Below, piece by piece: positions 22,355-44,226 of a stretch of 64,000 nt of DNA (position 1 is the first letter of the stretch; each line of letters begins with the position of its first letter). The position numbers and the translations under genes were made by a program. The DNA lies in contig JAMLJA010000016.1 of assembly GCA_023953905.1 (NCBI GenBank), positions 1-64,000 on the forward strand, given 5' to 3'. The notes below the pieces were generated by a model that was given only the letters and a program-made list of their open reading frames with translations, had not been told where the DNA came from and searched no databases. The stretch is from Rhizobiaceae bacterium. Its GTDB lineage: Bacteria > Pseudomonadota > Alphaproteobacteria > Rhizobiales > Rhizobiaceae.

Positions 22355-22645
22355 TCAGGTCGACTGGCCTTCCCTGACCGAAGCCCGGAACGCCTTCACA
22401 TCAAATGATTCAAAGCAGCCATTGGCAACGTAAGGGTCGTTGCTGATCAAGGAGTACGCCTCATCGCGATCTTCGGCCTGAACGATCATGATCTGGCCAA
22501 TACGCTCGCCGTCGTCGGAAAGAAGCGGACCAGCCAGCCAGATGCGCTCCATGCGCGGCTCCCAGTAGGTATCGTGATCGCCCCGCAGGCGAGTACGGAT
22601 TTCGGCGATACCGGGGTTCGCGCGTAGGGTGGCGGCAAAAAGCAT
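22355..22645 (-). CDS. YciI-family protein
   Basis: 96-residue protein with the YCII dimeric alpha-beta barrel fold: RMERIWLAGPLLSDDGERIG and DRDEAYSLISNDPYVANG are the family hallmarks, including the conserved His/Asp region in shortened form. Members are often small lactone- or enol-processing enzymes or accessory proteins in catabolic operons; the function of this one is not known. Its ATG at 22645 shares one base with the stop of the FMN 2-hydroxyacid dehydrogenase (TAATG), so it is co-translated with that enzyme. Confidence 0.82.
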   Translation of the reverse strand: MLFAATLRANPGIAEIRTRLRGDHDTYWEPRMERIWLAGPLLSDDGERIGQIMIVQAEDRDEAYSLISNDPYVANGCFESFDVKAFRASVREGQST

Positions 22646-23880
22646 TATTTGACCTTCCTTAGAAAAGAGGCGTCCAGTTCATCCAGACGATTGATCCCAA
22701 GCAGCGCCATGTCGCGACCAATCTCTTCGCCCATGAGCGAGATGGCGTGGCGGACGGCGTCCAGCCCAAACACGGCGGACATCAGGAATGGCCGACCGAT
22801 GAAAACGAAATCGGCGCCAGCAGCCAACGCCTTGAGCACGTCCGTGCCGCGCCTGAAGCCGCCATCGACCATGACCGTCATGGAACCCGACTGTTTGACG
22901 ATCTCCGGAAGCATGCGCATCGGAGCGATCGCCCCATCCAGCTGACGCCCGCCATGATTGGAGACAACGATTCCGTCAGCACCCATTTGCGCGGCCTTCG
23001 CCGCGTCAGCCGCCGAAAGCAGTCCCTTGATGACCAGCTTGCCCTTCCAACGTTGACGAATGCGGGCAACGTGGGTCCAGTCGAGTTGGTCGCGCGCGCC
23101 GATCTGGCGGACCAGGTTGCGCGACATCACCGGAGGGCCGCGAAAAGCATCCATGTTCTCAAAGCGGGGACTGCCTTGCGCCAGCGTGCGCAGGAACGTT
23201 CCGAACGTCCATCTCGGATGGGTCAAGCCGTCGATAGCCAGCCTGAGGCTCGGTCGCATCGGGATACTGAAGCCCGTGCGGACATTGTTCTCGCGATTGG
23301 CCGGAACGGGCACGTCCGCGGTGAGCACCAGTGTGGAAAAGCCCGCAGTTTCCACACGATCCACCATTGCATCGATGCGTTCAGCCTCACCGGGCAGATA
23401 CGCCTGAAACCAGCTCGCGCCACCTTCCTGCGCAAGTCGCTCCAGCGGCATGATGGATGTGGCGCTGACAACCATGGGAATGTTCTCGGCCCGCGCGGCA
23501 CGTGCAAGCACGAGATCGCCCTCAAAGGTGGAAAGCCCGCTGAGCCCCATTGGCGAAATGCCGATCGGTAAACTGTAGTCGCGACCGAACAGAGTCGTAT
23601 GCGCCGAGCGGCGAGAAACATTTGCGAGCACACGCGGCACAAGCGCCAGTTCCTCAAAGCTCTCGCGATTGTCGCGAAACGACTGCCCCGTCTCGGCCGC
23701 GCCGGCATAGTAGCCATAGATCTGACGCGGAAGCCGGTGCCGCGCCGCGCGCTGGAAGTCATCAAGGTTCAGGAACCGCGCAGCAAGCCCTGGATGCGTG
23801 GCCTTCTCTTCCCGTTCCGCCACAACGACACGCAATTTTGCGGCATTGAGATCGCCCGCGTTCGGCGTCTGCGCAATCAT
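22645..23880 (-). CDS. FMN-dependent 2-hydroxyacid dehydrogenase (lactate/mandelate type)
   Basis: 411-residue TIM-barrel flavoenzyme that oxidises an (S)-2-hydroxy acid to the 2-oxo acid. The ATG at 23880 with GAGG just upstream is preferred to a longer frame overlapping the ThDP gene. Visible are IYGYYAGAAETG near the N-terminus (substrate Tyr), TADVPVPANRENN and the active-site block VVSNHGGRQLDG with the catalytic His and FMN/substrate Arg, then VDGGFRRGTDVLKALAAGAD. It lies 67 bp after the ThDP decarboxylase gene, an order that mirrors the mandelate pathway where the product 2-oxo acid is decarboxylated next. A second homologue is at 30564. Confidence 0.9.
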   Translation of the reverse strand: MIAQTPNAGDLNAAKLRVVVAEREEKATHPGLAARFLNLDDFQRAARHRLPRQIYGYYAGAAETGQSFRDNRESFEELALVPRVLANVSRRSAHTTLFGRDYSLPIGISPMGLSGLSTFEGDLVLARAARAENIPMVVSATSIMPLERLAQEGGASWFQAYLPGEAERIDAMVDRVETAGFSTLVLTADVPVPANRENNVRTGFSIPMRPSLRLAIDGLTHPRWTFGTFLRTLAQGSPRFENMDAFRGPPVMSRNLVRQIGARDQLDWTHVARIRQRWKGKLVIKGLLSAADAAKAAQMGADGIVVSNHGGRQLDGAIAPMRMLPEIVKQSGSMTVMVDGGFRRGTDVLKALAAGADFVFIGRPFLMSAVFGLDAVRHAISLMGEEIGRDMALLGINRLDELDASFLRKVK

Positions 23881-23947
23881 CCCGACCTCACTCCCGGAAC
23901 GCCGCCTCGCGAGCGAGGCATTGGGGCATTTCGACCAAGTCTGTGGC

Positions 23948-25717
23948 TCAGGAAGCGCCGGCAGCGGCATAGCCGGGAGCGATATGCACATCCAAAACGG
24001 CAACCTTGCCATCGCGCACCGCCGCAACCGCCTCCTTGATCGCCTCGCGCAAAGCGACTGCGTCTCGGATGGGGCCGAAACCGACCGCGCCCTGGGCCTT
24101 TGCCATCAAAGCGATGTCCGGTGCCGGATCGTCTATGCGCTGTCCGATCCACTTGTTCTCGACGGGGCGTTGGCGCCGCTTGGCGACACGCTCCTGATGC
24201 AGTTCGTCATTGAAGAACGACCGATTGTTGGCGGAGATCACAAGCATGGGGATCTTGTAGTGAACTGCTGTCCAGATCGCGGTCACGCCCATCAACGTAT
24301 CGCCATCGCCGAGCACGGCGACGGGCAGGTGATCGGTGTCCATGAGGGCAAGTGCGGCGCCGACAGCCATACCGGGTCCCGATCCGACACCGCCGCCACC
24401 GGAGTGCCCGAGCTGATCGAGAGGATGGGAGAACTCCATCAATGAACCGTCCCACCCGAGAGGGATGCGCATGAGCGAAACCGGTTGCCCGTCAGCCGCC
24501 GATCTCAGCGCCTGGGCGATGTCGGACAGCTCCAGTTCGTCTCCGGCTTGAGCGTCAGGCTTTGAAGGCGCTGTAGAATATGTCGTCCTTTGTAACGGAG
24601 CCGGGAGCATCGCGGATAGGGCAGCAACAAAGGCTTCCGGGGTTGACTGGACATGAAGATCAACCTCGGGCAGCGCCATGTATTCGAAGTTCGAACCGTT
24701 GTGCAGCAGATGATCCAGCGACACCTGAATGACCTTTGCCGGGCAGGATTGCTGCGGCCAGATCGTCCGCAATGCACCCGCCAGATCGGCCCAATCAATC
24801 GAAAGGACCACATCGGCTTCACGCAGGCGTGCCAACGCCGACGGCGTCAACGACATCCCCGGAGATCCGGCATGCAGGGGATGAGCCGTCGGGAACGCAG
24901 CACCGACCTTGAGATCGGTCGCCACCATTGCATCGAGCTGCTCCGCAAGGCGAACACGATTGTCCCATTCCTTTTGATCGCGCGTAACCCGCCCCATGAG
25001 GATCGCAGGCTTCTTCGCGTTCCTCAGCAAGTCAGAGGCGGCGGCAAGAACCTCATCGGCAGGTCTTGCGTCCGCAAATGGCTTGAACCGCGAGAGGTTC
25101 GGCAATGGACGATCCTGCGTGAGCTCGGCTTCCTGAATGTCGGAATCCAGATTGATATAGACCGGACCTTTCGGGGCGGTCATGCTCATCTGCATCCCGC
25201 GCAGAAACGACTCTTCGGCAGCGATGAGCGACGTCGGCTGGTCGTCCCATTTCACGTAGCTGCGGACCATCGAAGCCTGATCACGCGTGCTGTGAATCCA
25301 GTCGATATAAGGCCGACGATGGGCCGCATCGAGTGGACCGGTGCCGCCTATGATCATCATGGGAACCCGGTCGCACCACGCATTGAAAATCGCCATCGTC
25401 GCATGCATCAGACCAACATTTGCATGAAGCGCCACTGCGAGCGGCTTGCCCGTGACGCGCGCATAGCCATGCGCCATCGCCACCGCGTGCTCCTCGTGCA
25501 GGCAGACGAGCATCTGAGGTGATTTATTACCAAGCCCATTCACGATGCTGTCGTGAAGACCCCGAAAGCTTGAGCCGGGATTGATGCAAATATAGGGTAT
25601 TTCGAAGCTGCGCAGCAATTCGGCTATGTGGTCACTGCCCCAGCGGCTGCCCGCCGGCGACGCTGCAGGCGTCTCGGAGTGGACGGCTTGCTTCGAAAGG
25701 TCTCCGGCTGCGCTCAT
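23948..25717 (-). CDS. Thiamine diphosphate-dependent 2-oxoacid decarboxylase-like enzyme, copy 1
   Basis: 589-residue enzyme of the acetolactate synthase/benzoylformate decarboxylase family. CINPGSSFRGLHDS (about 44-57) and the activating Glu in LHEEHAVAMAHGYA (about 73-86) lie in the PYR domain; the ThDP-Mg motif GDGDTLMG..ISANN lies in the PP domain. The ATG at 25717 has GGAGAAGGG ahead. Paired with an FMN 2-hydroxyacid dehydrogenase it probably decarboxylates a 2-oxo acid to an aldehyde, as benzoylformate decarboxylase does, though a carboligase or sulfoacid-related role is possible. A close paralogue with the same PGSSFRGLHDS block is at 33072. Confidence 0.87.
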   Translation of the reverse strand: MSAAGDLSKQAVHSETPAASPAGSRWGSDHIAELLRSFEIPYICINPGSSFRGLHDSIVNGLGNKSPQMLVCLHEEHAVAMAHGYARVTGKPLAVALHANVGLMHATMAIFNAWCDRVPMMIIGGTGPLDAAHRRPYIDWIHSTRDQASMVRSYVKWDDQPTSLIAAEESFLRGMQMSMTAPKGPVYINLDSDIQEAELTQDRPLPNLSRFKPFADARPADEVLAAASDLLRNAKKPAILMGRVTRDQKEWDNRVRLAEQLDAMVATDLKVGAAFPTAHPLHAGSPGMSLTPSALARLREADVVLSIDWADLAGALRTIWPQQSCPAKVIQVSLDHLLHNGSNFEYMALPEVDLHVQSTPEAFVAALSAMLPAPLQRTTYSTAPSKPDAQAGDELELSDIAQALRSAADGQPVSLMRIPLGWDGSLMEFSHPLDQLGHSGGGGVGSGPGMAVGAALALMDTDHLPVAVLGDGDTLMGVTAIWTAVHYKIPMLVISANNRSFFNDELHQERVAKRRQRPVENKWIGQRIDDPAPDIALMAKAQGAVGFGPIRDAVALREAIKEAVAAVRDGKVAVLDVHIAPGYAAAGAS

Positions 25718-25757
25718 GAATCCCTTCTCCCAACTGAACGGTCAATTTATGTATGAA

Positions 25758-25911: not shown

Positions 25912-25983
25912 CTTTATAGCGCACAAAAAACCAGCGCATCGGCCCGGAACGCCGGATAAAGTCAACAAACACGGGGAACGAAA

Positions 25984-26952
25984 ATGACTCGTAAATTCCA
26001 CCTTCTTACAGCCGCAGCCATGATCGCGATCGCGCAGCCTGCGGCCGCACAAGGCAACGAAAAAGTCAAAGTCGCTACGACCTTCCTTGGCCTCTGGGAC
26101 ACCTCGCAACCCTCATTGTGCGCCGAGCGTGGCGAATTCGCCAAGGCCGGTCTGGATGTCGAAGTAACGTCCACGCGTGGCGGCTCGGAAAACGTTCAGG
26201 CGGTCGTGGCCGGCGGCATGGATATCGGTTACTCACCGGGCATCAACTCGGTTCTGGCTGCGGCTGGACAGGGAGCGCCTATCAAGATCATCAGCTCCGA
26301 ATTCCGCGGACAGAATGACTCTTTCTTCTACGTCAAGGCCGACAGCCCGATCAAATCCATGGACGATCTGGCCGGCAAGTCGATCGCCTATTCGCGCCCC
26401 GGCGGCGCCAGTGAGGCCATTCTGCTCGCCCTGAAAGCCGATCGGAACATCGATCTCAATCTCGTCACCGGCGGAGGCATGGATGCCACCTACACGATGG
26501 CGATGACCGGCCAGATCGACGTTGGCTATGCAGTCCCGCCGACAATGTTGAAAGAGGCCGAAGAAGGAAAGATCCGCGTGATCTTCTCGGGCGACGACGT
26601 TGAATCGCAGCGCGGCATGACCCAGCGCCTGATCATCGCCAGCGACGACTTTCTGTCTAACCGGCGCGAGGTGGCGACCAAGTTCCTCGAAGTGCTCGAT
26701 CAGTGCATTGACTGGGCCTATGCCAATCCAGAGGAGTCGCTCGCATACTATGCGAAGTTGAACAAGGTGGATCCTGCCATCGCAAAGAAGGGCATGGAAT
26801 TCTACAAGCGCGAAACACTGGCCTTTGGTCCGATTCAGGAGCAGGAAAAGGGTATCGCGCAGGCTGTTGCCGGTGGCTTCATCAAGGAAAAGCCGAGCGA
26901 GGAAGCTTTGAAGGATCTGGTCCAGATTCTTTACACCACACCCGCTAAGTAG
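25984..26952 (+). CDS. ABC transporter substrate-binding protein (SsuA/NMT1 type), paralogue 1
   Basis: 322-residue periplasmic receptor with a signal peptide ending PAAAQG (cut near residue 22) and a start ATG preceded by GGGGAACG. The mature protein opens VKVATTFLGLWDTSQPSLC and contains RGGSENVQAVVAGGMDIGYS, as in nitrate/sulfonate/taurine-type receptors. A paralogue at 38954 is alike over the full length, by eye more than half identical. A strong stem-loop follows it. Its ATPase is at 27065; permeases are not adjacent but at 34857 and 35677. Ligand unknown, presumably the acid or amine degraded by module E. Confidence 0.9.
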   Translation: MTRKFHLLTAAAMIAIAQPAAAQGNEKVKVATTFLGLWDTSQPSLCAERGEFAKAGLDVEVTSTRGGSENVQAVVAGGMDIGYSPGINSVLAAAGQGAPIKIISSEFRGQNDSFFYVKADSPIKSMDDLAGKSIAYSRPGGASEAILLALKADRNIDLNLVTGGGMDATYTMAMTGQIDVGYAVPPTMLKEAEEGKIRVIFSGDDVESQRGMTQRLIIASDDFLSNRREVATKFLEVLDQCIDWAYANPEESLAYYAKLNKVDPAIAKKGMEFYKRETLAFGPIQEQEKGIAQAVAGGFIKEKPSEEALKDLVQILYTTPAK

Positions 26953-26965
26953 CATTTGGCAGTCA

Positions 26966-26998: not shown

Positions 26999-27064
26999 GC
27001 CACCCCACATGAAGCTGATCTCTTTCAACGAGTCGGATTTCATCAAGGTTTATGGATTGGAAGA

Positions 27065-27883
27065 ATGACCCTGACGTCTGATCCTTCTGCACTCTCCGAA
27101 ACGCCAACCGACGTACCCGCACTGGCGCTTCGAGAGGTCGGCAAGTCGTTTGGTAACGGCGATACGACATTCTGGGCAGTGAAGGACTTTTCGTTCGATA
27201 TTCGCCCCGGCGAGTTCATCTCGATTATCGGCCCCAGCGGGTGCGGCAAGTCCACTCTGTTCAGCATCATTGGCGGGTTCTTCTCCCGCTCCAGCGGTAC
27301 CGTGCTTGTCGATGGTAAATCCGGCGCGGATATTCGCCGCTCGATCGGCAGTGTGTTCCAGCAGGAATCCACCTTCCCCTGGCGGACCGCGCTCGACAAT
27401 GTCGCTTTTCCACTCGAGGCTGCCGGGGTAGGCAAGAAGGAAAGGCACGATCGCGCGCGCGAATTGCTGTCGCTCGTCGGCCTTTCGGGTTTCGAGAACC
27501 ATTATCCGTCGGAAATGTCTGGTGGCATGCGTCAACGAACGGCTATCGCCCGTACGCTCGCCGCAAGCCCCAAGATCCTGCTCATGGACGAGCCGTTCGC
27601 TGCACTTGACGAACAGACCCGCATGTTGCTGGGCGATAAGGTTCTCCAGATCCAGCAGTCTCTGAAGCAGACGACGCTGCTGATTACCCACAACATCACC
27701 GAGGCGGTGCAGCTGAGCGACCGCGTGATCATCATGACCTATCGGCCCGGCACAATAAAGCGTGTCGTCGAGGTTGATCTGCCTCGCCCGCGCACGTCCG
27801 AAATCATTGGCAGTGAAGCCTTCAGCCGCGTTGTGGGCGAGATCTGGGCCGATCTTCGCGTCGAGGCCAGCCGGGGCATGTAA
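27065..27883 (+). CDS. ABC transporter ATP-binding protein (SsuB/TauB type)
   Basis: 272-residue ATPase with Walker [11 protein letters not shown]-loop SVFQQESTFPWR, signature MSGGMRQRTA, Walker B LLMDEPFAALDEQT and switch His in LITHNITEAV. It starts 112 bp after the receptor gene, beyond the stem-loop. It is the only ATPase in the plus-strand unit 25984-38864, so it is expected to serve the two permeases at 34857 and 35677 and possibly both paralogous receptors. A short polar N-terminus of about 15 residues precedes the conserved core. Confidence 0.92.
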   Translation: MTLTSDPSALSETPTDVPALALREVGKSFGNGDTTFWAVKDFSFDIRPGEFISIIGPSGCGKSTLFSIIGGFFSRSSGTVLVDGKSGADIRRSIGSVFQQESTFPWRTALDNVAFPLEAAGVGKKERHDRARELLSLVGLSGFENHYPSEMSGGMRQRTAIARTLAASPKILLMDEPFAALDEQTRMLLGDKVLQIQQSLKQTTLLITHNITEAVQLSDRVIIMTYRPGTIKRVVEVDLPRPRTSEIIGSEAFSRVVGEIWADLRVEASRGM

Positions 27884-27989
27884 AGGGCTGCGATCGCGCA
27901 GTGCCGCAGTGCCTTGTTATGTTAATAATGAAGCTTTCTGGCTGATATAGTTTGGTTTGCCGCCTTTTCTGAGAATAGATCCGGAGTCG

Positions 27990-29084
27990 ATGATGAAGTC
28001 CTGGCTGTCTTACGATTTCAATGACATGCGGCTTGAAGATGCGCCCATGCCGAAGGCGGAGCCGGGATGGGTCGTCTGCCGGACGCGCGTGCTGCAGCTG
28101 TCGATTACCGAAGTCGCCGAATTCCGCGGCCTGCCCGTTTCAAGCCACGAAGTCTACAAGGAGATGTGGGCCAAGCAGCGTCCGCTCCCGCTGTTCGGAC
28201 ACGAGTTCTGCGCCGAGGTTGTGGAAGTCGGTGCTGGTGTCGATAATCTCAAGATCGGCGACCGTGTGTTCTATCATCGCGGTGCCCAGTGCGGGCGGTG
28301 CAAGTACTGCAAGGCCGGGCAGCCGCAATATTGCCGGTCGTCCACTTTCGTCGGCGAAGACACCCCAGGCTGTCTTGCCGAGTATTTTCCGGTGCCCGCG
28401 CATGTGGTTGCGGCGGTCCCGAAGGAAGTCAGCGATTCCGAATGCGCCTCGCTGCAGCCTCTGGTGTCGATGGTATCGTCGCTGGAAGGGCTTGGCATCT
28501 CGATGGGTGATACCGTCGCCGTCATCGGTCTGGGGCCAATGGGTCTCGACACGATGCAGGTTGCGAGGGTGGCAGGGGCAGGCAAGGTCATCGCCATTGC
28601 GCGCCGCGACGAAGTGCTGGAATTGGGCCGCTCTCTCGGCGCCGACGTGACTGTCAACGTCACGAACACCGATCCCGTCGAAGCCGTCATGGAGGCGACA
28701 AACGGCCTCGGCTGCGACGTGGTGGTGGACTGCGCAGGCGGCAGCAACGAGCAGGGCCATGCCGGCACGTCGGCCTTCCAGCAGGGTCTCCAGATGCTCC
28801 GCAACGAGGGCCGCATCATGGAGGTCGGACATCTCCCGGCCGGCGCGCAGATCGTCTACGGGCTGATCGAGAAGAAGGCGCTCCGAGTCTATGGTCGCAG
28901 AGCGCCATCGGCGCGCATGATCCAGTATTCGATCGATCTCGTGGCGAGCGGCAGGGTCAAGATCGAGCCAACCATCCTGCACAAGCTGCACGGCATCGAA
29001 AAGGTGCCTGAGGCCTTCGATATGCTCGCCAACAAGTCAAAGCACGGCATCATCAACCCACCGCAAGTGGTGGTCTGGCAGTAA
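27990..29084 (+). CDS. Zinc-dependent alcohol dehydrogenase (MDR superfamily)
   Basis: 364-residue medium-chain dehydrogenase/reductase. GHEFCAEVVEVGAG carries the catalytic-zinc His-Glu pair; four cysteines in CGRCKYCKAGQPQYC form the structural-zinc lobe; the NAD-binding glycines are in VIGLGPMGLD. The ATG at 27990 (or 27993) with CCGGAG is preferred to an upstream TTG. It would oxidise or reduce an alcohol/aldehyde or polyol-type intermediate. It lies in the module E unit, downstream of the ATPase and upstream of an aminotransferase, so it probably handles a product or precursor of that pathway. Substrate unknown. Confidence 0.88.
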   Translation: MMKSWLSYDFNDMRLEDAPMPKAEPGWVVCRTRVLQLSITEVAEFRGLPVSSHEVYKEMWAKQRPLPLFGHEFCAEVVEVGAGVDNLKIGDRVFYHRGAQCGRCKYCKAGQPQYCRSSTFVGEDTPGCLAEYFPVPAHVVAAVPKEVSDSECASLQPLVSMVSSLEGLGISMGDTVAVIGLGPMGLDTMQVARVAGAGKVIAIARRDEVLELGRSLGADVTVNVTNTDPVEAVMEATNGLGCDVVVDCAGGSNEQGHAGTSAFQQGLQMLRNEGRIMEVGHLPAGAQIVYGLIEKKALRVYGRRAPSARMIQYSIDLVASGRVKIEPTILHKLHGIEKVPEAFDMLANKSKHGIINPPQVVVWQ

Positions 29085-29127: not shown

Positions 29128-30525
29128 ATGATTTCTGAAGAGCAACTCGCATCATTGTCCTATCCGGCAATGCCCAAGATGGTGACCAATTCGCTGCCGG
29201 GTCCAATGGCGGCAGCCGTGATCGAGCGCGCCCACAAGGCGCAAACTCCGACGCGACCGTCGGTTCGTGGACGATTGGTCATCGAAAGCGCGATGGGCGC
29301 CGGTTTCACAGATGCCGACGGCAATGTTTTCCTCGACATGTCAGCCGGTGTCGCCGTGTCCAGCGTCGGGCGCAATCATCCGAAAGTGGTGGCGGCGATC
29401 CGCGATCAGAGCGAAAAGCTGATGCACTCCGCCGGCCTGGTCAGCGACACCACGGTTTCACTCGCCGAGAAGCTGAACGCGACATTGCCAGTGGGGTTGA
29501 AGGACGAGAGCTTCAGCTGGTTCGGCATGAGCGGCTCGGACGCGATCGAAACCGCCATCAAGTTCGCAAAGGCGATCACCGGGCGCAGCCAGATCGTTGC
29601 CTTCGAGGGGGCCTATCACGGTGTCTTCCACGGCTCGCTGGCACTCACCACCCGCGAGAATTTCAGGGCCGGTTTCGGGCCCCTAATGCCCGGCGCCATG
29701 CATCTCCCCTACCCTTACTGCTATCGTTGCTTTGCCGACATGAAACCGTCGGAATGCGGGTCGCTATGCTCCAAATACGTTCGTCACAAACTGACGACCC
29801 CGAACACGGGTGCGGACGATGTGGCCGCGGTGATCGTTGAATCGATGCAGGCCGATGGCGGCTATATCGACCCGCCGGCTGAATTCCTCCAGACGATCCG
29901 CGAGGTGTGCACCGCCAAGAACATCATCATGATCGTTGATGAAGTGCAGGCAGGCGGCGGGCGGACCGGCAAGATGTGGGGTCACGAGCACTTCGGCGTG
30001 GTGCCCGACATGATGACGTGGGCAAAGGCGGTCGGCGGAGATCTGCCAATGTCGGGCGTGGTAATCCACGAGCGCTTCCGCGACAAGCTTCCGCAGGCCT
30101 CGCAGGTCCTCACGGCGGCGGAGAATGCTCTGTCCAATCGCGTCGCCATGACAAATCTGGATATCCTGACCGATCCCGAAGACGATCTCATGGGCCGCGC
30201 AGTCATCGTGGGCGAGGAATTGAAAGCCGAGCTTCGCGAAATCGCCTCCAAGAGCAAGTTCATGGACGAAGTGCGCGGACGTGGTCTGTTCATCGGCATC
30301 GAACTTGTCTCCGACAAGGAAAAGAGAACGCCGCTGGACGCCAAGCGGATGGGAGCGATCCTCCAGAAGTGCGAACTGCAAGGCGTCAGGATCATGTCCT
30401 GCGGCCGCTACGGTTCGACGATACGGCTGATGCCGCCGCTGACGGCTACACGGGCCCATCTGCGGGCCGGCATCCGTGCACTGGCCAATGCCATCGCCGA
30501 GGTCGAGGCGGAAACCGTCAACTGA
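29128..30525 (+). CDS. Class III aminotransferase (4-aminobutyrate aminotransferase-like)
   Basis: 465-residue PLP enzyme. FGMSGSDAIETAIKFA (about 132-147) and VDEVQAGGGRTG (about 270-281, Asp 271) precede the Schiff-base lysine in TWAKAVGGD (about K300). Four cysteines cluster in the stretch YCYRCFADMKPSECGSLCSK (Cys 198, 201, 210, 214), a feature also seen in other members with a surface metal or Fe-S loop; whether a metal binds here is untested. The start ATG is preceded by GGAG at eight bases. In the operon it is followed by the FMN hydroxyacid dehydrogenase, so amine removal probably feeds the hydroxy/oxo acid steps. Confidence 0.9.
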   Translation: MISEEQLASLSYPAMPKMVTNSLPGPMAAAVIERAHKAQTPTRPSVRGRLVIESAMGAGFTDADGNVFLDMSAGVAVSSVGRNHPKVVAAIRDQSEKLMHSAGLVSDTTVSLAEKLNATLPVGLKDESFSWFGMSGSDAIETAIKFAKAITGRSQIVAFEGAYHGVFHGSLALTTRENFRAGFGPLMPGAMHLPYPYCYRCFADMKPSECGSLCSKYVRHKLTTPNTGADDVAAVIVESMQADGGYIDPPAEFLQTIREVCTAKNIIMIVDEVQAGGGRTGKMWGHEHFGVVPDMMTWAKAVGGDLPMSGVVIHERFRDKLPQASQVLTAAENALSNRVAMTNLDILTDPEDDLMGRAVIVGEELKAELREIASKSKFMDEVRGRGLFIGIELVSDKEKRTPLDAKRMGAILQKCELQGVRIMSCGRYGSTIRLMPPLTATRAHLRAGIRALANAIAEVEAETVN

Positions 30526-30563: not shown

Positions 30564-31634
30564 GTGAGCGAGTTCACCTGCAACCAAGAGATCGTGACGA
30601 TTGCGCGCCGCAATCTCACACAGGATGTCTGGGACTATCTGACCGGCGGTGCGGAGTCTGAAATGACGATGCGGCGCAACCGTCACGCGATAGACAGCTA
30701 CGCCTTCATTCCGCGCGTGCTGCGTGACATGTCGTCGATCGACCCTTCGGGAACCACACTCGGCCAGAAGGTTCGCATACCGGTTCTGCTTGCGCCTATC
30801 GGGTCGCTTCAGGCCATCCATGCTGGAGGTGGCGCCAGTTCTGCAAAGGCAGCGGCCCGGTTCGGGACCATGCCGATCATCAGTTCGATCACCGAGCCGT
30901 CCCTGGAAGAAATAGCCGAGGCGGCCGACGGGCCGAAGGTCTTCCAACTCTATGTTCGAGGCGATTTCGACTGGATCAAATCCATCGTCGGTCGTGCGAA
31001 ATCAGCCGGCTACACATCGCTCGCGCTGACTGTCGACTCCGCCTATTACGGCATTCGGGAGCGACAGCTGATGAATCGCTGGCTGCCGCCCAGCGTCAAG
31101 GCACAAAAGGACCGTCACCTCCAATCAGCCATCACCTGGGACCTCATGGATCGCATTCGCGACCTGTGGCAGGGCAATTTCATGCTCAAGGGAATAGGCT
31201 CGGTTGCCGACGCGGTGATGGCGGTCGAACGGGGCGTCGACACGCTCTACATCTCCAATCATGGCGGCCGGCAACTGGACCATTGTCTGGGTGGGCTGGA
31301 AACCCTGGCGGAAGTTGCCGCGGCGGTAAAGGGTCGCGCCGAACTGATCGTCGATGGCGGCTTCCTGCGCGGCACCGACGTGATCAAGGCCATTGCACTT
31401 GGGGCTTCGTCGGTTGCGATCGGTCGCCTGCAAGGTTGGGCATTGGCGGCGGGCGGCGAGGACGGACTGGTACGCTGTCTTGAGCTCATCGAACGGGAGA
31501 TGATCAATGCACTGGGTCTTCTGGGCGTCAACAATCTCGCCCAGCTGACGACGGATTATGTCCGAAAGACCGATGTCGTCGGACCGACGCATGAACTGAG
31601 CACGTTCTATCACATGAAGGAGCGGCTCACGTGA
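30564..31634 (+). CDS. FMN-dependent 2-hydroxyacid oxidase/dehydrogenase, second homologue
   Basis: 356-residue enzyme starting at a GTG with GAGG five bases before it; frames opening further upstream run over the aminotransferase and are artefacts. YLTGGAESEMTMRRN near the N-terminus holds the substrate Tyr, and YISNHGGRQLDHCLGG holds the catalytic His and Arg, followed by VDGGFLRGTDVIKAIALGAS. It is shorter than the homologue at 22645 and closer in layout to glycolate/lactate oxidases. Its stop overlaps the next aldehyde dehydrogenase start by four bases (GTGA). Likely oxidises a 2-hydroxy acid for the ThDP enzyme at 33072. Confidence 0.88.
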   Translation: MSEFTCNQEIVTIARRNLTQDVWDYLTGGAESEMTMRRNRHAIDSYAFIPRVLRDMSSIDPSGTTLGQKVRIPVLLAPIGSLQAIHAGGGASSAKAAARFGTMPIISSITEPSLEEIAEAADGPKVFQLYVRGDFDWIKSIVGRAKSAGYTSLALTVDSAYYGIRERQLMNRWLPPSVKAQKDRHLQSAITWDLMDRIRDLWQGNFMLKGIGSVADAVMAVERGVDTLYISNHGGRQLDHCLGGLETLAEVAAAVKGRAELIVDGGFLRGTDVIKAIALGASSVAIGRLQGWALAAGGEDGLVRCLELIEREMINALGLLGVNNLAQLTTDYVRKTDVVGPTHELSTFYHMKERLT

Positions 31635-33061
31635 CCGTGTCATTGCAGCATCTGATCGCAGGCGAATGGACGAGCGGATCCGGATCCGAGACGCTGTCCG
31701 TCATCAATCCCGCCACTGAGGAAGAGATTGGCCGCCTGCCGCTGGCAACAACGGCTGATCTGGACCGTGCGCTTGAATCGTCCCAACGTGGTTTTGAGCA
31801 GTGGCGCAAGGCTCTTCCCACCGAGCGATCAAAGGTGCTGCGCAACTTTGCTGCCCTGCTGCGCCAGAATACCGAATTGCTGGCGGCTGCCATAACGGAA
31901 GAAGAGGGAAAGCCGCTTGCGGAAGCGCGCAATGAAGTGGCAGCCACTGCCGAGCTTACGGAATGGCTGGCTGAGGAAAGCCGCCGCATGTACGGCCGCA
32001 TCGTGCCCTCCCGCTATGAGAACACGCGCATTCTGGTGACCTACGAGCCGGTGGGTCCGGTTGCCGCCTTCTCGCCGTGGAATTTCCCCTGCATGATGGC
32101 CGCGCGCAAGATCGCGCATGCCCTTGCAGCAGGCTGCTCGGTTATCTTGAAGCCGTCCGAAGAGACCCCCGGCCCGGCTGTGCTGCTTGGGCGTCTCATC
32201 ATCGAAGCGGGCGCGCCGAAAGACGCCGTCAATATCGTGTTCGGCGACCCCGCCCAGGTGTCGGACTATCTGATCGACAGCCCGATCATCAAGAAAGTGA
32301 ACCTCACCGGCTCGGTGCCGGTCGGCAAACATGTGGCGCAGCGTGCCGCGCGACAGCTCAAGAAAGTGACGCTTGAACTCGGTGGTCATTCACCCGCCAT
32401 CATCATGGACGACGCAGACATCGAGCGAGCCGTCGATCTGTGCTGGAAAGCACGCTATCGCAATGCCGGTCAGGTCTGCACCGCGCCCACCCGCTTCTTC
32501 GTGCAATCCAAGGTTATGGATCAGTTCGTCGAGAAATTCACGGCTGGCGCCGCATCGCTGCGCGTCGGTGTCGGCACCGATGCGTCGACCACAATGGGGC
32601 CGGTTGCAAACCGCAGGCGGCTGGAGGCGATGGAGAAGTTCGTCGCCGATGCCGTCGCACGCGGCGGAACGGTGCTCGCCGGCGGCGAGCGGCTTGGCAA
32701 TCGCGGCTTCATGTTTGGGGCGACGGTGCTCTCGGGCGTTCCGTCGGACGCGGATGTGATGCAGCAGGAGCCATTCGGCCCGATCGCGCCGATTGCCTCT
32801 TTCACCGATCTCGACGAGGTCGTGGCGGAAGCAAACTCGCTGCCGTTTGGTCTTGCCTCCTACGCCTTCACGCGGTCGCACTCCGTCGCCGCGAAACTCT
32901 CCGCCTCACTCAAGGCAGGCGTCGTCGCGCTCAATGGTGTTACCGTCACTGCCCCCGAAGCACCCTTCGGTGGCGTCGGCGACAGCGGCCTTGGGCGGGA
33001 AGCCGGCATCGAGGGCGTGCTGGAGCACATGAACATCAAAACCGTCCTAGAAACCTTCTGA
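31631..33061 (+). CDS. Succinate-semialdehyde-type aldehyde dehydrogenase
   Basis: 476-residue NAD(P) enzyme starting at GTG 31631, overlapping the previous stop. FSPWNFPCMMAARK (about 147-160), the base in LELGGHSP (Glu about 249) and nucleophile GQVCTAPTR (Cys about 283) are intact. It sits between the FMN hydroxyacid enzyme and the ThDP decarboxylase, so it is the obvious enzyme to oxidise the aldehyde made by that decarboxylase, the role played by MdlD in the mandelate pathway. The sequence groups with SSADH rather than with benzaldehyde dehydrogenases, which suggests an aliphatic aldehyde. Confidence 0.9.
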   Translation: MTVSLQHLIAGEWTSGSGSETLSVINPATEEEIGRLPLATTADLDRALESSQRGFEQWRKALPTERSKVLRNFAALLRQNTELLAAAITEEEGKPLAEARNEVAATAELTEWLAEESRRMYGRIVPSRYENTRILVTYEPVGPVAAFSPWNFPCMMAARKIAHALAAGCSVILKPSEETPGPAVLLGRLIIEAGAPKDAVNIVFGDPAQVSDYLIDSPIIKKVNLTGSVPVGKHVAQRAARQLKKVTLELGGHSPAIIMDDADIERAVDLCWKARYRNAGQVCTAPTRFFVQSKVMDQFVEKFTAGAASLRVGVGTDASTTMGPVANRRRLEAMEKFVADAVARGGTVLAGGERLGNRGFMFGATVLSGVPSDADVMQQEPFGPIAPIASFTDLDEVVAEANSLPFGLASYAFTRSHSVAAKLSASLKAGVVALNGVTVTAPEAPFGGVGDSGLGREAGIEGVLEHMNIKTVLETF

Positions 33062-33071
33062 GGAGATCGGG

Positions 33072-34835
33072 ATGGAACGCGACATTGCAGTAAAGTCGAC
33101 CGAATCCGAGTTGAAATGGGGCAGCGACGTCGCAGCCGAGATGCTGCGCCGTCTCGGCGTGGAATATGTCTGCATCAATCCGGGCTCCAGTTTTCGCGGG
33201 CTGCATGACAGTCTCGTGAACTATCTCGGCAACGAAAACCCGTCCCTGCTCCTCTCGCTCCACGAAGAGAGCGTGGTGGCCATTGCCCACGGCTATGCCA
33301 AGGTCACCGGCAAGCCCATGGGTGTGGTGCTGCACAGCAATGTTGGGCTGATGCTGGGCATGATGTCGATCTTCAATGCATGGTGCGACCGCGTGCCGAT
33401 GCTGATCATGGGCGCGACGGGCGCAGTCGATACGGTGGTACGCCGCAATTGGATCGACTGGCTGCACACGTCGCGCGACCAGGGCGCGCTTATACGTCAC
33501 TTCGTCAAATGGGACGACCAGCCGACGTCGCCCGGTGCCACGGTCGAGGCAATACTGCGGGCGCATATGCTTGCCTGCACCGCCCCTTGCGGCCCTTCCT
33601 ACGTCGCCCTTGACCGGCGATTGCAGGAGGACGCGCTGGCCAAGGAGATTCCGCTTCCGGATATCTCGCTCTTTACGCCGCCGCATCCTCCCATGCCCAC
33701 GCCCGAAACGATGACGCAGGCCGCATCCATGCTGGCAAATGCGGAGCGTCCCGTGATCCTGATAGGTCGGGCCTCGCGATCGCAGGCTGCATGGTCCCAG
33801 CGCATCGCGCTTGCCGAATTGTTGGGCGCACGGGTGATAACCGATCTCCGCTTCGGCGCCTCTTTCCCGACCACACATCCTCTGCACGGCGCACCGCCGG
33901 ACCTCTTCCTGACGCCGCGAAACCGGCAGATACTGGCCGAGGCTGACGTCGTGCTCAGTCTGGGCTGGGACGACCTCGCCGATGTCATGCGGCAGGCCAA
34001 TGCCGACAGCGGAAGCAAGGCGAAAGTCATTCACGTCTCTATCGATCACCAGGTTCACAATGGATGGTCGGGCGATCACCAACGACTGGCACCCGTGGAA
34101 CTGCGCATCGCCTGCGAGGCCGACTCGGTGCTTGAGCCCCTGACCTCCGCTTTGAAAGATCAGGCGGTCGTTGCAAAACCAATACCAGCCGCAACCGCCG
34201 CTCCGAATATGCCGCCGGTGGCAGCCGGCAAAAAGCCAACCCTGCTCGACATCGGTCGAGCGCTGTTGGCCGCTCGTGGCGATCGCAAACTCTGCCTCGC
34301 GCGTGTTCCGCTAAATTGGCCCGCTGGCGCCTACCCGTTCGAGGATCCGATGGATTATCTCGGATATGACGGTGGCGGCGGCGTTGGATCTGGTCCTGGC
34401 ATGACGATTGGATCAGCGTTGGCGCTCAAGGGCTCGGACCGCCTGCCCGTCGGGCTGATGGGTGATGGCGAATTCATCGGCGGCGCGACCGCGCTTTGGA
34501 CAGCAGCTCATTACCATATCCCGGTGCTGATCGTGGTCGCGAACAATCGCTCCTACTACACGGATGAGGTGCAGCAGGAAGCTGTCGCCCTGGCACGCGG
34601 TCGGCCGGCGGAGAACAAATGGATCGGACAACGCATCGACGAGCCTGCGATCAACATCGCGGGAATGGCCGAGAACCTGGGATTCAAGACCGAGAAGGCG
34701 GTAACCGATTCCGGTGACGTTCAAGCCGCGATCGAGCGGGGGCTGGCCGAAGTCGAAGCCGGTGGATGCTATCTGATCGAAATCGAAATCGAGCCGTCCG
34801 ACGGTTCCAGCCTCGATTGGCTGAATCACCACTAA
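33072..34835 (+). CDS. Thiamine diphosphate-dependent 2-oxoacid decarboxylase-like enzyme, copy 2
   Basis: 587-residue paralogue of the enzyme at 23948, alike over its full length. CINPGSSFRGLHDS and the activating Glu in LHEESVVAIAHGYA lie in the PYR domain; GDGEFIGG..VVANN is the ThDP-Mg motif in the PP domain. The middle domain differs most between the copies. GAGGAGATC precedes the ATG by a few bases. It follows the aldehyde dehydrogenase by 10 bp and precedes the permeases by 21 bp. Two such enzymes in one region suggest either two substrates of similar shape or two subunits; heteromers cannot be excluded. Confidence 0.87.
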   Translation: MERDIAVKSTESELKWGSDVAAEMLRRLGVEYVCINPGSSFRGLHDSLVNYLGNENPSLLLSLHEESVVAIAHGYAKVTGKPMGVVLHSNVGLMLGMMSIFNAWCDRVPMLIMGATGAVDTVVRRNWIDWLHTSRDQGALIRHFVKWDDQPTSPGATVEAILRAHMLACTAPCGPSYVALDRRLQEDALAKEIPLPDISLFTPPHPPMPTPETMTQAASMLANAERPVILIGRASRSQAAWSQRIALAELLGARVITDLRFGASFPTTHPLHGAPPDLFLTPRNRQILAEADVVLSLGWDDLADVMRQANADSGSKAKVIHVSIDHQVHNGWSGDHQRLAPVELRIACEADSVLEPLTSALKDQAVVAKPIPAATAAPNMPPVAAGKKPTLLDIGRALLAARGDRKLCLARVPLNWPAGAYPFEDPMDYLGYDGGGGVGSGPGMTIGSALALKGSDRLPVGLMGDGEFIGGATALWTAAHYHIPVLIVVANNRSYYTDEVQQEAVALARGRPAENKWIGQRIDEPAINIAGMAENLGFKTEKAVTDSGDVQAAIERGLAEVEAGGCYLIEIEIEPSDGSSLDWLNHH

Positions 34836-34856
34836 CGCGGAAAAGGAGCGCGGTCG

Positions 34857-35675
34857 ATGTCGAAAGCCAAGGGGGTCGCAATAAGCGCCGCGCCTCGCCG
34901 CAACTCCGCGTCGTCGGGGTTGCGCTTCCTCAGGACGATCGCGGATCCGGCGGTCTTGTTCGGCTTTCTGGTTTTCGTCGCCATTCTCGGCGCGGTCCAG
35001 TGGCTCGTCGCCAGCGGCCACATCTCACGCGCCATAGTGGCACTGCCGAGCGATGCGATCGCGGGGTTGTTTTCGCCCGAGTTCAGTGGCGAGCTGTTTC
35101 GCGCATGCCGCCTGACGTTCGGGCTGGTGGTATCCGCGCTTGTGCTCGAAATCCTCGTCGCCATCCCGATCGGCTACTTCCTGTACCGCAAACCTGTATT
35201 CGGTGCCGCTTATGAAAGCTGGCTCGCCGCCCTGTTCGCAGCTCCGATCTTCCTGCTCTACCCACTGTTCATGGTGATCATCGGGCGCAACAACTACACG
35301 CTGCTTTTCATGGGCTTCGCGGCCGGGGTGATCCCGATCATCATCCACGCACGGCTCGCCTTCATGACCGTGCCGGATACGCTGATCAATGTCGGACGCA
35401 GCTTTCATCTCACGCAATCGCAGATCTTCTGGAAGATCATCCTGCCAAGCGGGGTCCCGACCATCTTCGCAGGCATCAGGCTCGCGCTGATCTATACCCT
35501 GATCAACATCATCGCGATCGAGTTCCTTGTCGACGCCGGCGGATTGGGCCGCATGGTTTCCGACCGCTACTTCCGCTTCGACATTGCCGGGACCTATACC
35601 GCCATTTCAGCCGTGGCGCTGGTCAGCGTCACGCTGAACCTGATCATAAATCGTCTCGAGAAGATGGTCCGGTAA
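34857..35675 (+). CDS. ABC transporter permease (SsuC/TauC type)
   Basis: 272-residue membrane protein with an unusually polar N-terminus of about 25 residues, then five to six hydrophobic segments beginning VLFGFLVFVAILGAVQWL. The EAA loop is near VGRSFHLTQSQIFWKIILPS. AAGGAG precedes the ATG. It is followed after one base by a second permease, so the transporter uses a heterodimeric channel. It shares the operon with the ThDP enzyme; the receptor and ATPase of the system are 7-9 kb upstream on the same strand. Confidence 0.9.
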   Translation: MSKAKGVAISAAPRRNSASSGLRFLRTIADPAVLFGFLVFVAILGAVQWLVASGHISRAIVALPSDAIAGLFSPEFSGELFRACRLTFGLVVSALVLEILVAIPIGYFLYRKPVFGAAYESWLAALFAAPIFLLYPLFMVIIGRNNYTLLFMGFAAGVIPIIIHARLAFMTVPDTLINVGRSFHLTQSQIFWKIILPSGVPTIFAGIRLALIYTLINIIAIEFLVDAGGLGRMVSDRYFRFDIAGTYTAISAVALVSVTLNLIINRLEKMVR

Positions 35676-35676
35676 C

Positions 35677-36501
35677 ATGAGTACGACATCCTCCTCCTCA
35701 GCATTCCTGACGCCCGTACGTCGCATCAAGATCGTGACGATTCTGGTCATTCTGGCCGCGTGGCAGCTGTTGGCCGTCTCCGGCCTGCTTTTTGAGGGCG
35801 TGTTGCCACAGCCCCTCCAGGTACTGGGAGCGCTCTACCAAGAGCTTCTTTCGCCCTCGCTATATTACGACCTGGGCATCACGCTTTTCGAAGCGGCGTT
35901 GGGCTTCATCATCGGCTCAGCCATTGCGATCGGCGTCGGGCTATGGCTCGGCAGCAGCAATTTCATGCGCCGCGCCTTCGAGCCCTATATTCATGCGCTG
36001 GCGGGCATGCCGAAGATCATCTTTCTCCCGATTCTGTTTCTCGTCTTCGGACTTGGGATCGAATCGAAGATTGCGAAATCAGCAATGTCTACTTTCTTCC
36101 CGGTCGTATTGAGCACGATTGCCGGCTTTCTCCAGATCGACAAGACCCTGATCAACGTCGGCCGGAGCTTCGACCTTACCCGCTCTAGAATGGTTCGCAT
36201 GATCTACATACCTGCGATGTTGCGTCCGCTCGCGGTGGGTCTGCAACTGGGCGTAGCGATGTCGATCATCGGTGTTCTTTCCGCCGAAATCGCCTATGCC
36301 AGCGCTGGATTGGGCGCGCGGCTCATCAGGTATTCTGACAACTTCAATATCAGCTCGACCTACGCCGTGATGATCATCATCTTTGCGGTGGCTGCATTCG
36401 TGAACTATCTGTTTGCCCGTCTACAGGAGCCCTTCCTGCGCCACGAACGTTCGAAGGCCGAGAATGCAGCCCGACCCGTCGTTCCAGTCGAGCAGACTTA
36501 G
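35677..36501 (+). CDS. ABC transporter permease (SsuC/TauC type), partner
   Basis: 274-residue membrane protein, starting one base after the stop of the other permease. Hydrophobic segments begin IVTILVILAAWQLLAVSGLL; the ATPase-contact loop is VGRSFDLTRSRMVRMIYIPA. By eye it is only distantly related to the first permease outside the EAA loop, consistent with a heterodimer. It leads into the molybdenum hydroxylase gene with 11 bp between them. Confidence 0.9.
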   Translation: MSTTSSSSAFLTPVRRIKIVTILVILAAWQLLAVSGLLFEGVLPQPLQVLGALYQELLSPSLYYDLGITLFEAALGFIIGSAIAIGVGLWLGSSNFMRRAFEPYIHALAGMPKIIFLPILFLVFGLGIESKIAKSAMSTFFPVVLSTIAGFLQIDKTLINVGRSFDLTRSRMVRMIYIPAMLRPLAVGLQLGVAMSIIGVLSAEIAYASAGLGARLIRYSDNFNISSTYAVMIIIFAVAAFVNYLFARLQEPFLRHERSKAENAARPVVPVEQT

Positions 36502-36512
36502 CATTGAGCGCC

Positions 36513-38864
36513 ATGCCAGAAGCAAACTCCCTCAAGACGGGCGGCATTGGATCGTCCGTCTCCCGGCGCGAAGACCTTCGCCTGATCAAGGGGAAAGGTC
36601 GTTACACCGACGACGTGGCGATCCAGACCGGCAAAGCGGCGCATCTGGTAGCCGTGCGCTCGCCCTACGCATTTGCCCGCATCGTCTCGATTGAAACGGA
36701 CGATGCAAAGAGCATGCCTGGCGTGCTCGCCGTGCTGACCGGCGATGACATGGCGGCGCTCAATCTCAAGCCGTTTCCCCTCCGCGTGATGCGAAAAAAG
36801 GCAAATGGCGAGCCCAATTTCGTGCCGCCTTATATGCCTCTCGCGGTGGATCATGTGCGCCATGTTGGTGACGTGGTGGCGTTTGTCGTTGCCGAGACAC
36901 TGGATCAGGCGAAGGATGCTGGCGAGCAGGTCCTGGTCGATTACGAGCCTTTGGATCCCGTCATCGACATGGGCGATGCCGTTGCCGAGGGCGCTACGTT
37001 GATCTGGCCATCGGAGCCGGACAATATCTGCTTCGAACACCGCCTTGGCGACAGCCAGGCTTGGGAGACCGCAAAGGCGAACGCCGACCATATCGTTTCC
37101 GACCGGATGGTTATCAGTCGCGTCAGCGCCAATCCTATCGAACCGCGCGCTGCGCTGGGAGAATACGACCCGGAGACGAAACGCTTCACGCTGCATTGCG
37201 GGCTTCAATCCCCACATGTATTTCGTAGAGAGATCGCAGCAATCTTCGGCATTCCGATCGACCGGCTGCGCGTGGTCGGACCCGATGTGGGCGGTGCCTT
37301 CGGCATGAAATCCAGCCTCCATCCGGAGATCATTCTGGTGCTCTGGGCAGCGCGTCTGACGGGTCGGCCCGTGCGGCATATCTGCGAGCGATCCGAGGCA
37401 TTCCTTTCCGATCACCAGTCGCGCGATCATGTCTCCGACGTATCTCTGGCGCTTGACAAGGAAGGCAAGTTCCTTGGGTTGAAGGTCTCCACGCTTGCAA
37501 ATCTAGGCGCCTATATCGCCTCCAATGGACTTCATTCGCCGACCAATAATCTCGGTGGACTGACGGGCGTCTACAAGATCGGTGCATTCGACGTGGTCGT
37601 GCGCGGAGTATTCACGAATACCCTGCCCACATGCCCTTACCGCGGCGCGGGAAGACCCGAAGCGACGTTCTATATCGAACAGATCATTGACAAGGCGGCG
37701 ACAGAGCTCGGCATCGACCGCGTCGAGCTACGTCGGCGCAATCTGATACCCCCCGAGGCCATGCCCTACGCGACCGGCCTGGTCTATACATATGACAGCG
37801 GCGACTTCCCGGCCGTGATGGAGAAATGTGTCGATGCCGCCGACTGGGTTGGCTTTGATCAGCGTCGGCAGGTTTCGGAAGCCTCCGGCCTGATACGGGG
37901 GATTGGTATCGCCTACGCGATCGAGATTGCAGGCGGTCCACCCGACAAGCCATTCGATGAATACGCCAAGATCGAATTCACGCCGGATGGTGGAGCAGTG
38001 ATTTATGCTGGCAGCCATTCCCAGGGCCAGGGCCACGAGACGAATTATCTCCAGATGGCCGAGACGCTTCTTGGCTTGCCGGCAGACCGTGTCGAGATTG
38101 TTTATGGCGATACAGACAGGGTCGTCGAGGGACGCGGCACGTTCGGTTCGCGCACAATGATGGCTTATGGCGCTGCGTTTTCCAGCGTCTCGTCGAGTAT
38201 TATTGCAAAGGCGCAGAAGCTGGCCGCCCATTTGCTGGAGACCGAACATAACGCGGTGGAGTTCCGGGACGGACGCTTTTTTGCGCGCGGCTCCAACAGA
38301 AACCTCTCGCTAAGCGATATCGCGATCGCATCACACGATCCCGAGCAGATGCCCGACGATCTGGAGCCGGGTCTGGAGGCCCACGCTTCCGTGGCACTCG
38401 ACCACGCGACCTATCCGAACGGATGTCATATCTGCGAGGTCGTCATCGATCCTGACACCGGCGCAGTCGATATTGTCAAATACGTTGTGGTCGATGACGT
38501 CGGCATCCAGATCAATCCAATGCTGGTAAAGGGACAGATCGCGGGTGGCGTCGTTCAGGGCATCGGGCAGGTCATGTCCGAACAGATCAGCTACAGCGAA
38601 GACGGGCAGGTCCTCAGCGGTTCGTTTATGGACTACGGCATGCCGAGAGCGGACGACGTTCCAAACATCGATGTCTACAGCCACGAAGTACCGACCAACA
38701 CAAATCCACTTGGGGTCAAGGGCGCTGGCGAGGCAGGTACTGTAGGCGCTCTGGCAGCAGTCTCAAGTGCGATCAAGCATGCCTTGCGCAGTCGCGGGGC
38801 CGATGGCTTTGAGATGCCGGCATCGCCGCTGCGTATCTGGACCGCACTGCAATCAAAGCGTTGA
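36513..38864 (+). CDS. Xanthine dehydrogenase/CO dehydrogenase-family molybdopterin-binding large subunit (orphan)
   Basis: 783-residue molybdenum hydroxylase large subunit. RLIKGKGRYTDD near the N-terminus, VGGAFGMKSS (about 270), the Mo-site loop PYRGAGRPE and the catalytic Glu in KGAGEAGTVGA (about 740) are all present, so it should be active. The ATG at 36513 is chosen; a TTG three codons earlier is possible and neither has a strong ribosome site, which suggests coupling to the permease. Members hydroxylate aldehydes or N-heterocycles and need a 2Fe-2S and usually an FAD subunit. Neither is encoded in the window, which is unusual for the family. It ends the plus-strand operon. Confidence 0.9.
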   Translation: MPEANSLKTGGIGSSVSRREDLRLIKGKGRYTDDVAIQTGKAAHLVAVRSPYAFARIVSIETDDAKSMPGVLAVLTGDDMAALNLKPFPLRVMRKKANGEPNFVPPYMPLAVDHVRHVGDVVAFVVAETLDQAKDAGEQVLVDYEPLDPVIDMGDAVAEGATLIWPSEPDNICFEHRLGDSQAWETAKANADHIVSDRMVISRVSANPIEPRAALGEYDPETKRFTLHCGLQSPHVFRREIAAIFGIPIDRLRVVGPDVGGAFGMKSSLHPEIILVLWAARLTGRPVRHICERSEAFLSDHQSRDHVSDVSLALDKEGKFLGLKVSTLANLGAYIASNGLHSPTNNLGGLTGVYKIGAFDVVVRGVFTNTLPTCPYRGAGRPEATFYIEQIIDKAATELGIDRVELRRRNLIPPEAMPYATGLVYTYDSGDFPAVMEKCVDAADWVGFDQRRQVSEASGLIRGIGIAYAIEIAGGPPDKPFDEYAKIEFTPDGGAVIYAGSHSQGQGHETNYLQMAETLLGLPADRVEIVYGDTDRVVEGRGTFGSRTMMAYGAAFSSVSSSIIAKAQKLAAHLLETEHNAVEFRDGRFFARGSNRNLSLSDIAIASHDPEQMPDDLEPGLEAHASVALDHATYPNGCHICEVVIDPDTGAVDIVKYVVVDDVGIQINPMLVKGQIAGGVVQGIGQVMSEQISYSEDGQVLSGSFMDYGMPRADDVPNIDVYSHEVPTNTNPLGVKGAGEAGTVGALAAVSSAIKHALRSRGADGFEMPASPLRIWTALQSKR

Positions 38865-44223: not shown

Positions 44224-44226
44224 GCG

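Follow-up and report, generated by a model that had tools for sequence, protein, structure and literature searches.

A conserved bacterial gene cluster with two FMN/ThDP enzyme sets and a putative amidohydrolase-related monooxygenase trio

Introduction

In the mandelate pathway, MdlB, MdlC and MdlD convert a hydroxyacid to an oxoacid, the oxoacid to an aldehyde and the aldehyde to an acid. A gene cluster that resembles this pathway in part lies in the first 64,000 nucleotides of contig JAMLJA010000016.1 of a Rhizobiaceae bacterium (GenBank assembly GCA_023953905.1), the stretch analysed here and called the window. It combines two sets of flavin mononucleotide (FMN)-dependent 2-hydroxyacid dehydrogenases and thiamine diphosphate (ThDP)-dependent enzymes with a putative amidohydrolase-related dinuclear oxygenase (ARO). 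The described AROs include the proteins of PDB entries 8sm7, 8sm6, 8sm9 and 6m1w (PMC10811679, PMC7782822, PMC10401708), and their dinuclear site is marked by an acidic residue two positions after the His of a DYPH motif (PMC7782822). For the AibH2-like dinuclear monooxygenases, 555 members have been listed, with few co-occurring genes from which function could be inferred (PMC10401708).

The cluster may serve to break down an acid or amine, probably aromatic, that the cell imports, with two 2-oxoacid-to-aldehyde steps in one pathway, a reading whose chances we regard as about evenly balanced. An initial annotation of the locus had proposed a duplicated mandelate-like module; the mandelate-like logic largely stands, and the duplication does not.

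A conserved, probably catabolic cluster

The locus was compared with seven other genomes, from Oryzicola, Mesorhizobium, Ancylobacter, Bosea and Pseudolabrys. Ten genes are common to all seven (coordinates are on the plus strand unless marked otherwise): ThDP_A, a 2-oxoacid decarboxylase-like enzyme (23948-25717, minus strand; PF02776/PF00205/PF02775); the ATPase of an ATP-binding cassette (ABC) transporter (27065-27883; PF00005; 70-89% conserved); a Tdh-like Zn alcohol dehydrogenase (27957-29084; PF08240/PF00107; 65-93% conserved); the class-III aminotransferase AT3 (29128-30525; PF00202); FMN_B (30564-31634); the aldehyde dehydrogenase ALDH1 (31631-33061; PF00171); two ABC permeases (34857-35675 and 35677-36501; both PF00528); the large subunit of a CoxL/XdhA-like molybdenum hydroxylase (36504-38864; PF02738/PF20256); and a second aldehyde dehydrogenase, ALDH2 (41946-43409; PF00171), which resembles BADH and phenylacetaldehyde dehydrogenase. 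The second ThDP enzyme, ThDP_B (33072-34835), is kept in six of the seven. A Rieske ferredoxin, a small protein, ARO and a MarR-family regulator (45549-46022; PF01047), the last also beside the ARO trio in relatives, recur in all six genomes with sequence at that place, the Mesorhizobium contig stopping at ALDH2.

Because this gene content is shared with the seven other genomes, the conserved unit was widened to ~22.3-46.0 kb. The limits first drawn, 22355-38864, were too narrow, and the inventory made within them omitted ALDH2 and the Rieske/small protein/ARO monooxygenase arm (43533-45468). The FMN, ThDP and receptor genes named in the initial annotation do lie where it placed them, and the receptors that it took for paralogues (SBP_A, 25984-26952, and SBP_B, 38954-39925; both PF09084) are indeed NMT1/SsuA-type ABC substrate-binding proteins, 57% identical to each other. 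The aldehyde dehydrogenase that it placed "between" exists (ALDH1) and belongs to the plus-strand set; the partner of ThDP_A in relatives is ALDH2.

The spread of the unit is patchy. Among the 397 genomes sampled from the order, 7 have a strong match to ARO and 17 to ThDP_B, and none to either was found in the other sampled members of the window's own family. Six strong ARO matches fall within 1.36 Mb of sequence around ThDP loci, compared with the 7 of 397 genomes that carry one; the co-occurrence of ARO and ThDP genes has a Fisher p of 0.001, not corrected for kinship.

Two old sets of dehydrogenase and ThDP enzyme

Both FMN-dependent enzymes pass the PF01070 cut-off and conserve the active-site Tyr/Tyr/Lys/His/Arg residues. 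FMN_A (22645 to ~23880, minus strand; E 6e-122), for which the start at ~23880 is preferred because a TTG start at 24027 would overlap the ThDP gene, has as its best PDB match the (S)-mandelate dehydrogenase 6bfg (253 bits), with the motifs SNHGGRQLD, FQAY and IKG aligned. FMN_B is nearest to glycolate/hydroxyacid and lactate oxidases, its best single-domain PDB match being the glycolate oxidase 5zbm. The two share 30% identity (153 bits), and one loop is ~45 residues longer in FMN_A (87) than in FMN_B (42). In a tree of the family they fall into separate clades, the A group having loops of 86-88 residues and those B relatives with a measurable loop 42-46.

ThDP_A and ThDP_B (587-589 residues) are more alike, at 49% identity end to end (509 bits), and do share PGSSFRGLHDS over a full-length similarity, as had been noticed at the outset; this motif, however, is typical of the entire ThDP family, for which at least 564 relatives were confirmed, and not specific to the pair. 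A quick tree of 94 ThDP proteins, with Shimodaira-Hasegawa approximate likelihood-ratio (SH-aLRT) values as its sole support measure, places the A orthologues of Oryzicola, Mesorhizobium, Ancylobacter, Bosea and Pseudolabrys in one clade and the B orthologues in another; the two clades repeat the same genus order, and many other lineages of the family lie between them.

The neighbours of the two enzymes also differ among relatives. In Ancylobacter and Bosea, FMN_A lies near the molybdenum hydroxylase and not beside ThDP_A, and in these two genera and in Pseudolabrys the steady neighbour of ThDP_A is ALDH2, which directly follows it. The separate clades, the loop lengths, the placement of FMN_A and the family-wide distribution of PGSSFRGLHDS therefore indicate that A and B are old, differentiated paralogue sets kept side by side within what appears to be one pathway, not products of a block duplication. 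Similar enzyme pairs within one cluster need not be duplicates.

What the ThDP enzymes might do is suggested by their structure and neighbours. The AlphaFold2 model of ThDP_A has a predicted local distance difference test score (pLDDT) of 86.8, and its best structural matches in Foldseek are benzoylformate decarboxylases (BFDCs), including two 4-hydroxybenzoylformate decarboxylases. Ser26, Glu47 and His70 are retained in both enzymes, as is the GDG..NN motif; these residue numbers, and that of His281 below, are those of the Pseudomonas putida BFDC. An aldehyde dehydrogenase adjoins the ThDP genes in many relatives, and an NAD-dependent D-2-hydroxyacid dehydrogenase adjoins the ThDP gene in Oryzicola, Mesorhizobium, Phaeobacter and Thioclava, in the first two sitting between ThDP_A and FMN_A. 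At the matching site in the window (23880-23948) no such gene is found, the best match in the same genome being 48% identical and on another contig. On the strength of its fold and conserved residues ThDP_A plausibly works like a BFDC while lying outside the curated BFDC family.

The putative ARO monooxygenase trio

ARO (44227-45468; PF04909) shows the amidohydrolase fold and long similarity to the characterised AROs named above, which are its best PDB matches. Its SSDYPHWD motif aligns with theirs, including the acidic residue of the dinuclear site, and is kept, allowing conservative changes, in the window and 16 relatives; D355, H358 and D360 are invariant in all 17 sequences. Wherever flanking sequence is present, a Rieske ferredoxin with the CxH..CxxH signature is found 325-436 bp from ARO; in the window this is the [2Fe-2S] protein at 43533-43898 (PF00355), whose translation contains CPH..CPWH. 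By sequence, the trio at 43533-45468 would be an amidohydrolase-related dinuclear (Mn/Fe-type) monooxygenase. The second amidohydrolase subunit of an AibH1H2-type heteromer was not found, ARO having no other homologue in the whole genome.

Between ferredoxin and hydroxylase lies a conserved small protein of ~112 residues (43885-44223), with homologues of ~90-120 residues in 16 ARO loci and on two plasmids; in Phaeobacter and Thioclava it is labelled 'hypothetical protein'. Three residues are invariant among 16 diverse sequences, and the ratio of nonsynonymous to synonymous substitution (dN/dS) between the window and Oryzicola is ~0.10. No Pfam or NCBIfam family matches it, and a fold search with its AlphaFold2 model, which has four helices and a pLDDT of 82, yields no solved structural relative. 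We infer that it is an undescribed four-helix coupling or effector partner and a candidate third component of these monooxygenases; being conserved, it suggests that accounts of these systems have so far missed a component.

Probable aromatic context

In Ancylobacter, Bosea and Pseudolabrys, genes for UbiX, UbiD, HpaB and a flavin reductase lie near ThDP_A/ARO. Orthologues of UbiD (73%), HpaB (67%) and UbiX (64%) occur on the window's own contig at ~84-88.5 kb, ~40 kb downstream. On plasmids of the Rhodobacterales Phaeobacter and Thioclava (NZ_CP010716.1 and NZ_CP123976.1), a ThDP gene (55% to ThDP_A), a 2-hydroxyacid dehydrogenase, an aldehyde dehydrogenase (53% to ALDH2), an alpha-hydroxy acid oxidase (41% to FMN_A), a VanB-type oxygenase pair and the ARO trio (64%) adjoin pcaCDGH of the protocatechuate pathway. 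With UbiD/UbiX/HpaB and pca genes as neighbours, the likely product is an aryl acid.

More widely, the 64-104 kb part of the same contig (L143/L144) holds what looks like a second aromatic arm, with HpaB, UbiD, UbiX, DUF2848, amidase and isochorismatase genes, and also a cytochrome P450 accompanied by a Fer2-domain protein, and a molybdenum-hydroxylase trio. A compact variant in another genome (L114) combines FMN_B-like, aldehyde dehydrogenase and different ThDP enzyme genes and a TctA/TctC transporter with ARO, Rieske, UbiD, UbiX and CoA-transferase genes.

Proposed pathway and alternatives

In the pathway that we favour, an aromatic acid or amine would be imported, and the Rieske ferredoxin, small protein and ARO would hydroxylate a C-H bond early, most simply yielding the hydroxy acid for the dehydrogenases. 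In the A branch, FMN_A, and in relatives the D-2-hydroxyacid dehydrogenase, would supply a 2-oxoacid to ThDP_A and then ALDH2; in the B branch, FMN_B, and possibly AT3, which the initial annotation had put at the start of its route, would supply one to ThDP_B and then ALDH1. The aryl acid formed would pass to ring degradation, through UbiD/UbiX/HpaB here and protocatechuate 3,4-dioxygenase on the Rhodobacterales plasmids. The genes, their conservation, their motifs and the separate ancestry of A and B are observed; the order of reactions, the aromatic substrate and the hydroxylation site we infer from them. The mandelate-like part of this scheme finds support in the FMN_A match, the fold of ThDP_A, the aldehyde dehydrogenase neighbours and the D-2-hydroxyacid dehydrogenase of relatives. 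A more specific version, which we consider doubtful, has the trio alpha-hydroxylate an aryl acid as a new monooxygenase of several components, namely an Mn/Fe-type hydroxylase, the Rieske ferredoxin and an undescribed four-helix protein for coupling; together with the dehydrogenases, the ThDP decarboxylase and the aldehyde dehydrogenase it would carry out an aerobic alpha-oxidation, shortening the side chain one carbon at a time, twice.

It is important to point out that several observations weigh against the favoured pathway. ThDP_A and ThDP_B score 155-160 bits against the BFDC model NF005485 (cut-off 493), compared with 640-850 bits for true BFDCs of the same order, and of the four catalytic residues the position of His281 is Ala in ThDP_A and Val in ThDP_B; a strict BFDC identity is ruled out by this curated cut-off together with the residue comparison, and carboligation or lyase chemistry by either enzyme is possible. 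Neither FMN_A nor ThDP_B is indispensable: the Pseudolabrys clusters yielded no FMN_A, and in the Mesorhizobium locus ALDH1 and permease 1 lie too close together for ThDP_B to fit between them. No PF00775 intradiol dioxygenase is encoded in the window's own genome; ring cleavage must therefore differ from the plasmid route, and protocatechuate ortho-cleavage is ruled out for this organism. Finally, the succinate-semialdehyde dehydrogenase (SSADH)-like ALDH1 and the gamma-aminobutyrate aminotransferase (GABA-AT)-like AT3 fit an aliphatic substrate equally well.

The first alternative is that the ThDP enzymes are carboligases or lyases, or direct heteroaryl-acid decarboxylases like LumK/LumL of riboflavin catabolism. 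The replaced His281, a family-specific ENKWIGQRID region and the molybdenum hydroxylase in the cluster agree with this, and ThDP-dependent decarboxylation of a heterocycle is documented (PMC12746152). Against it stand the frequent 2-hydroxyacid and aldehyde dehydrogenase neighbours, the retained Ser26, Glu47 and His70, and the size of LumK and LumL, given there as 20 and 23 kDa, versus 587-589 residues here; on balance we think it unlikely.

An aliphatic amino-acid or hydroxy-acid route, GABA- or 2-aminoisobutyrate-like, would have ARO hydroxylate an amino acid, AT3 transaminate it, ThDP_B make a semialdehyde and ALDH1 oxidise this. AT3 has PDB matches to GABA-AT and to alanine/serine racemase; ALDH1 resembles SSADH, scoring 467 bits against TIGR01780, under the cut-off of 646; and AibH2, a characterised ARO relative, acts on 2-aminoisobutyrate (PMC7782822). 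The genome, however, has no AibH1-like second amidohydrolase, the UbiD/UbiX/HpaB and pca neighbours indicate aromatics, and FMN_A is mandelate-dehydrogenase-like, so that we give the route as a whole little credence. Given ALDH1 and AT3, an intermediate of the B set could still be aliphatic. A literal copying of an FMN dehydrogenase and decarboxylase block for two similar 2-hydroxy acids, to which the recurrence of the same families on opposite strands and the identities of the ThDP enzymes and receptors might point, is highly improbable given the distant, differently looped FMN enzymes in separate clades, the separate ThDP clades with orthologues in the same genera, and the placement of FMN_A away from ThDP_A in Ancylobacter and Bosea, with none found in Pseudolabrys.

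Other genes and neighbouring regions

At the left end of the unit, a YCII-family small protein (22355-22645, minus strand; PF03795) adjoins FMN_A in two loci (L001/L004) and is also present in the Pseudolabrys clusters. The molybdenum hydroxylase has no FAD or FeS subunit adjoining it, and a search of the genome for the FAD subunit found none within the window; in Ancylobacter a different part of the cluster contains an FAD-subunit gene (L131:10170). SBP_B and a histone-deacetylase-like gene of the acetylpolyamine-amidohydrolase type (39969-41063) stand between the molybdenum hydroxylase and ALDH2 in the window and not in Oryzicola.

Upstream, the minus strand at 13935-21383 encodes UbiX, an NMT1-type ABC transporter, a HisC-like aminotransferase, AMDase/EutA-like and D-glutamate-cyclase-like proteins and a VdcC-like UbiD; because relatives were not found to carry this run (~13.9-21.4 kb) alongside the cluster, it is excluded from the unit. 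Together with ARO, the AMDase-like gene at 18288 had brought the Aib pathway into consideration, which is likewise rejected: AibC is an enzyme of the serine hydroxymethyltransferase (SHMT) type, and AibH1 has no homologue in the genome. Further upstream (9990-12293), a fused ThDP protein of E1/transketolase type, preceded by FAD oxidases and an aldehyde dehydrogenase, marks a different ThDP catabolic cluster. Downstream, at 46033-54716, lie genes for an FmdA/AmdA-like amidase, an aldehyde dehydrogenase, an ABC transporter and an Amidohydro_3 protein, which adjoin the cluster in Oryzicola (L127/L128) too and partly in Bosea. No PDB sequence matched the A3 profile at 1e-60, and neither BbmA, nor PDB 7pda, nor the named families in combination led to useful literature.

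Comparison with known systems

Like the mandelate pathway of P. putida, the cluster unites an FMN-dependent (S)-2-hydroxyacid dehydrogenase, a ThDP enzyme of BFDC fold and an aldehyde dehydrogenase. Unlike that pathway, it has two distantly related FMN/ThDP sets, whose ThDP enzymes fall outside the BFDC family and lack His281, and adds an ABC importer, an aminotransferase, a molybdenum hydroxylase and the ARO monooxygenase; its relatives apparently serve both hydroxyacid enantiomers through different dehydrogenases. With lumichrome catabolism, in which LumK/LumL form a thiamin-dependent heterocycle decarboxylase, it would share ThDP-dependent decarboxylation and a molybdenum hydroxylase in an aromatic catabolic cluster; LumK/LumL, in contrast, are split into small subunits and attack a heteroaryl acid directly, and the accessible part of PMC12746152 describes no 2-hydroxyacid dehydrogenases.

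Another close counterpart is the Phaeobacter/Thioclava plasmid cluster, with its ThDP enzyme, 2-hydroxyacid and aldehyde dehydrogenases, alpha-hydroxy acid oxidase, Rieske/small protein/ARO trio and MarR regulator. There, one ThDP gene is among those listed, a TRAP (TAXI) transporter and the VanB-type Rieske oxygenase pair are present and pcaCDGH adjoins, whereas the window has an ABC transporter and a UbiD/HpaB arm. As in AibH1H2, SfbO and PtmU3, a PF04909 protein bearing the dinuclear DYPHxD motif stands beside a small Rieske ferredoxin; in contrast to those systems as described, the putative oxygenase has a single amidohydrolase, an additional conserved 112-residue protein between ferredoxin and hydroxylase, and other pathway neighbours. 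The enzyme families are ordinary; what is new is that an orphan family of monooxygenases gains a pathway context, and that the cluster encodes a small partner protein not described before. One subfamily of the AibH2-like dinuclear monooxygenases is thereby placed among conserved catabolic genes (2-hydroxyacid dehydrogenases, ThDP enzymes, aldehyde dehydrogenases, and UbiD/HpaB or pca genes) in culturable strains, so that the substrate of this subfamily can be sought by growth and induction tests.

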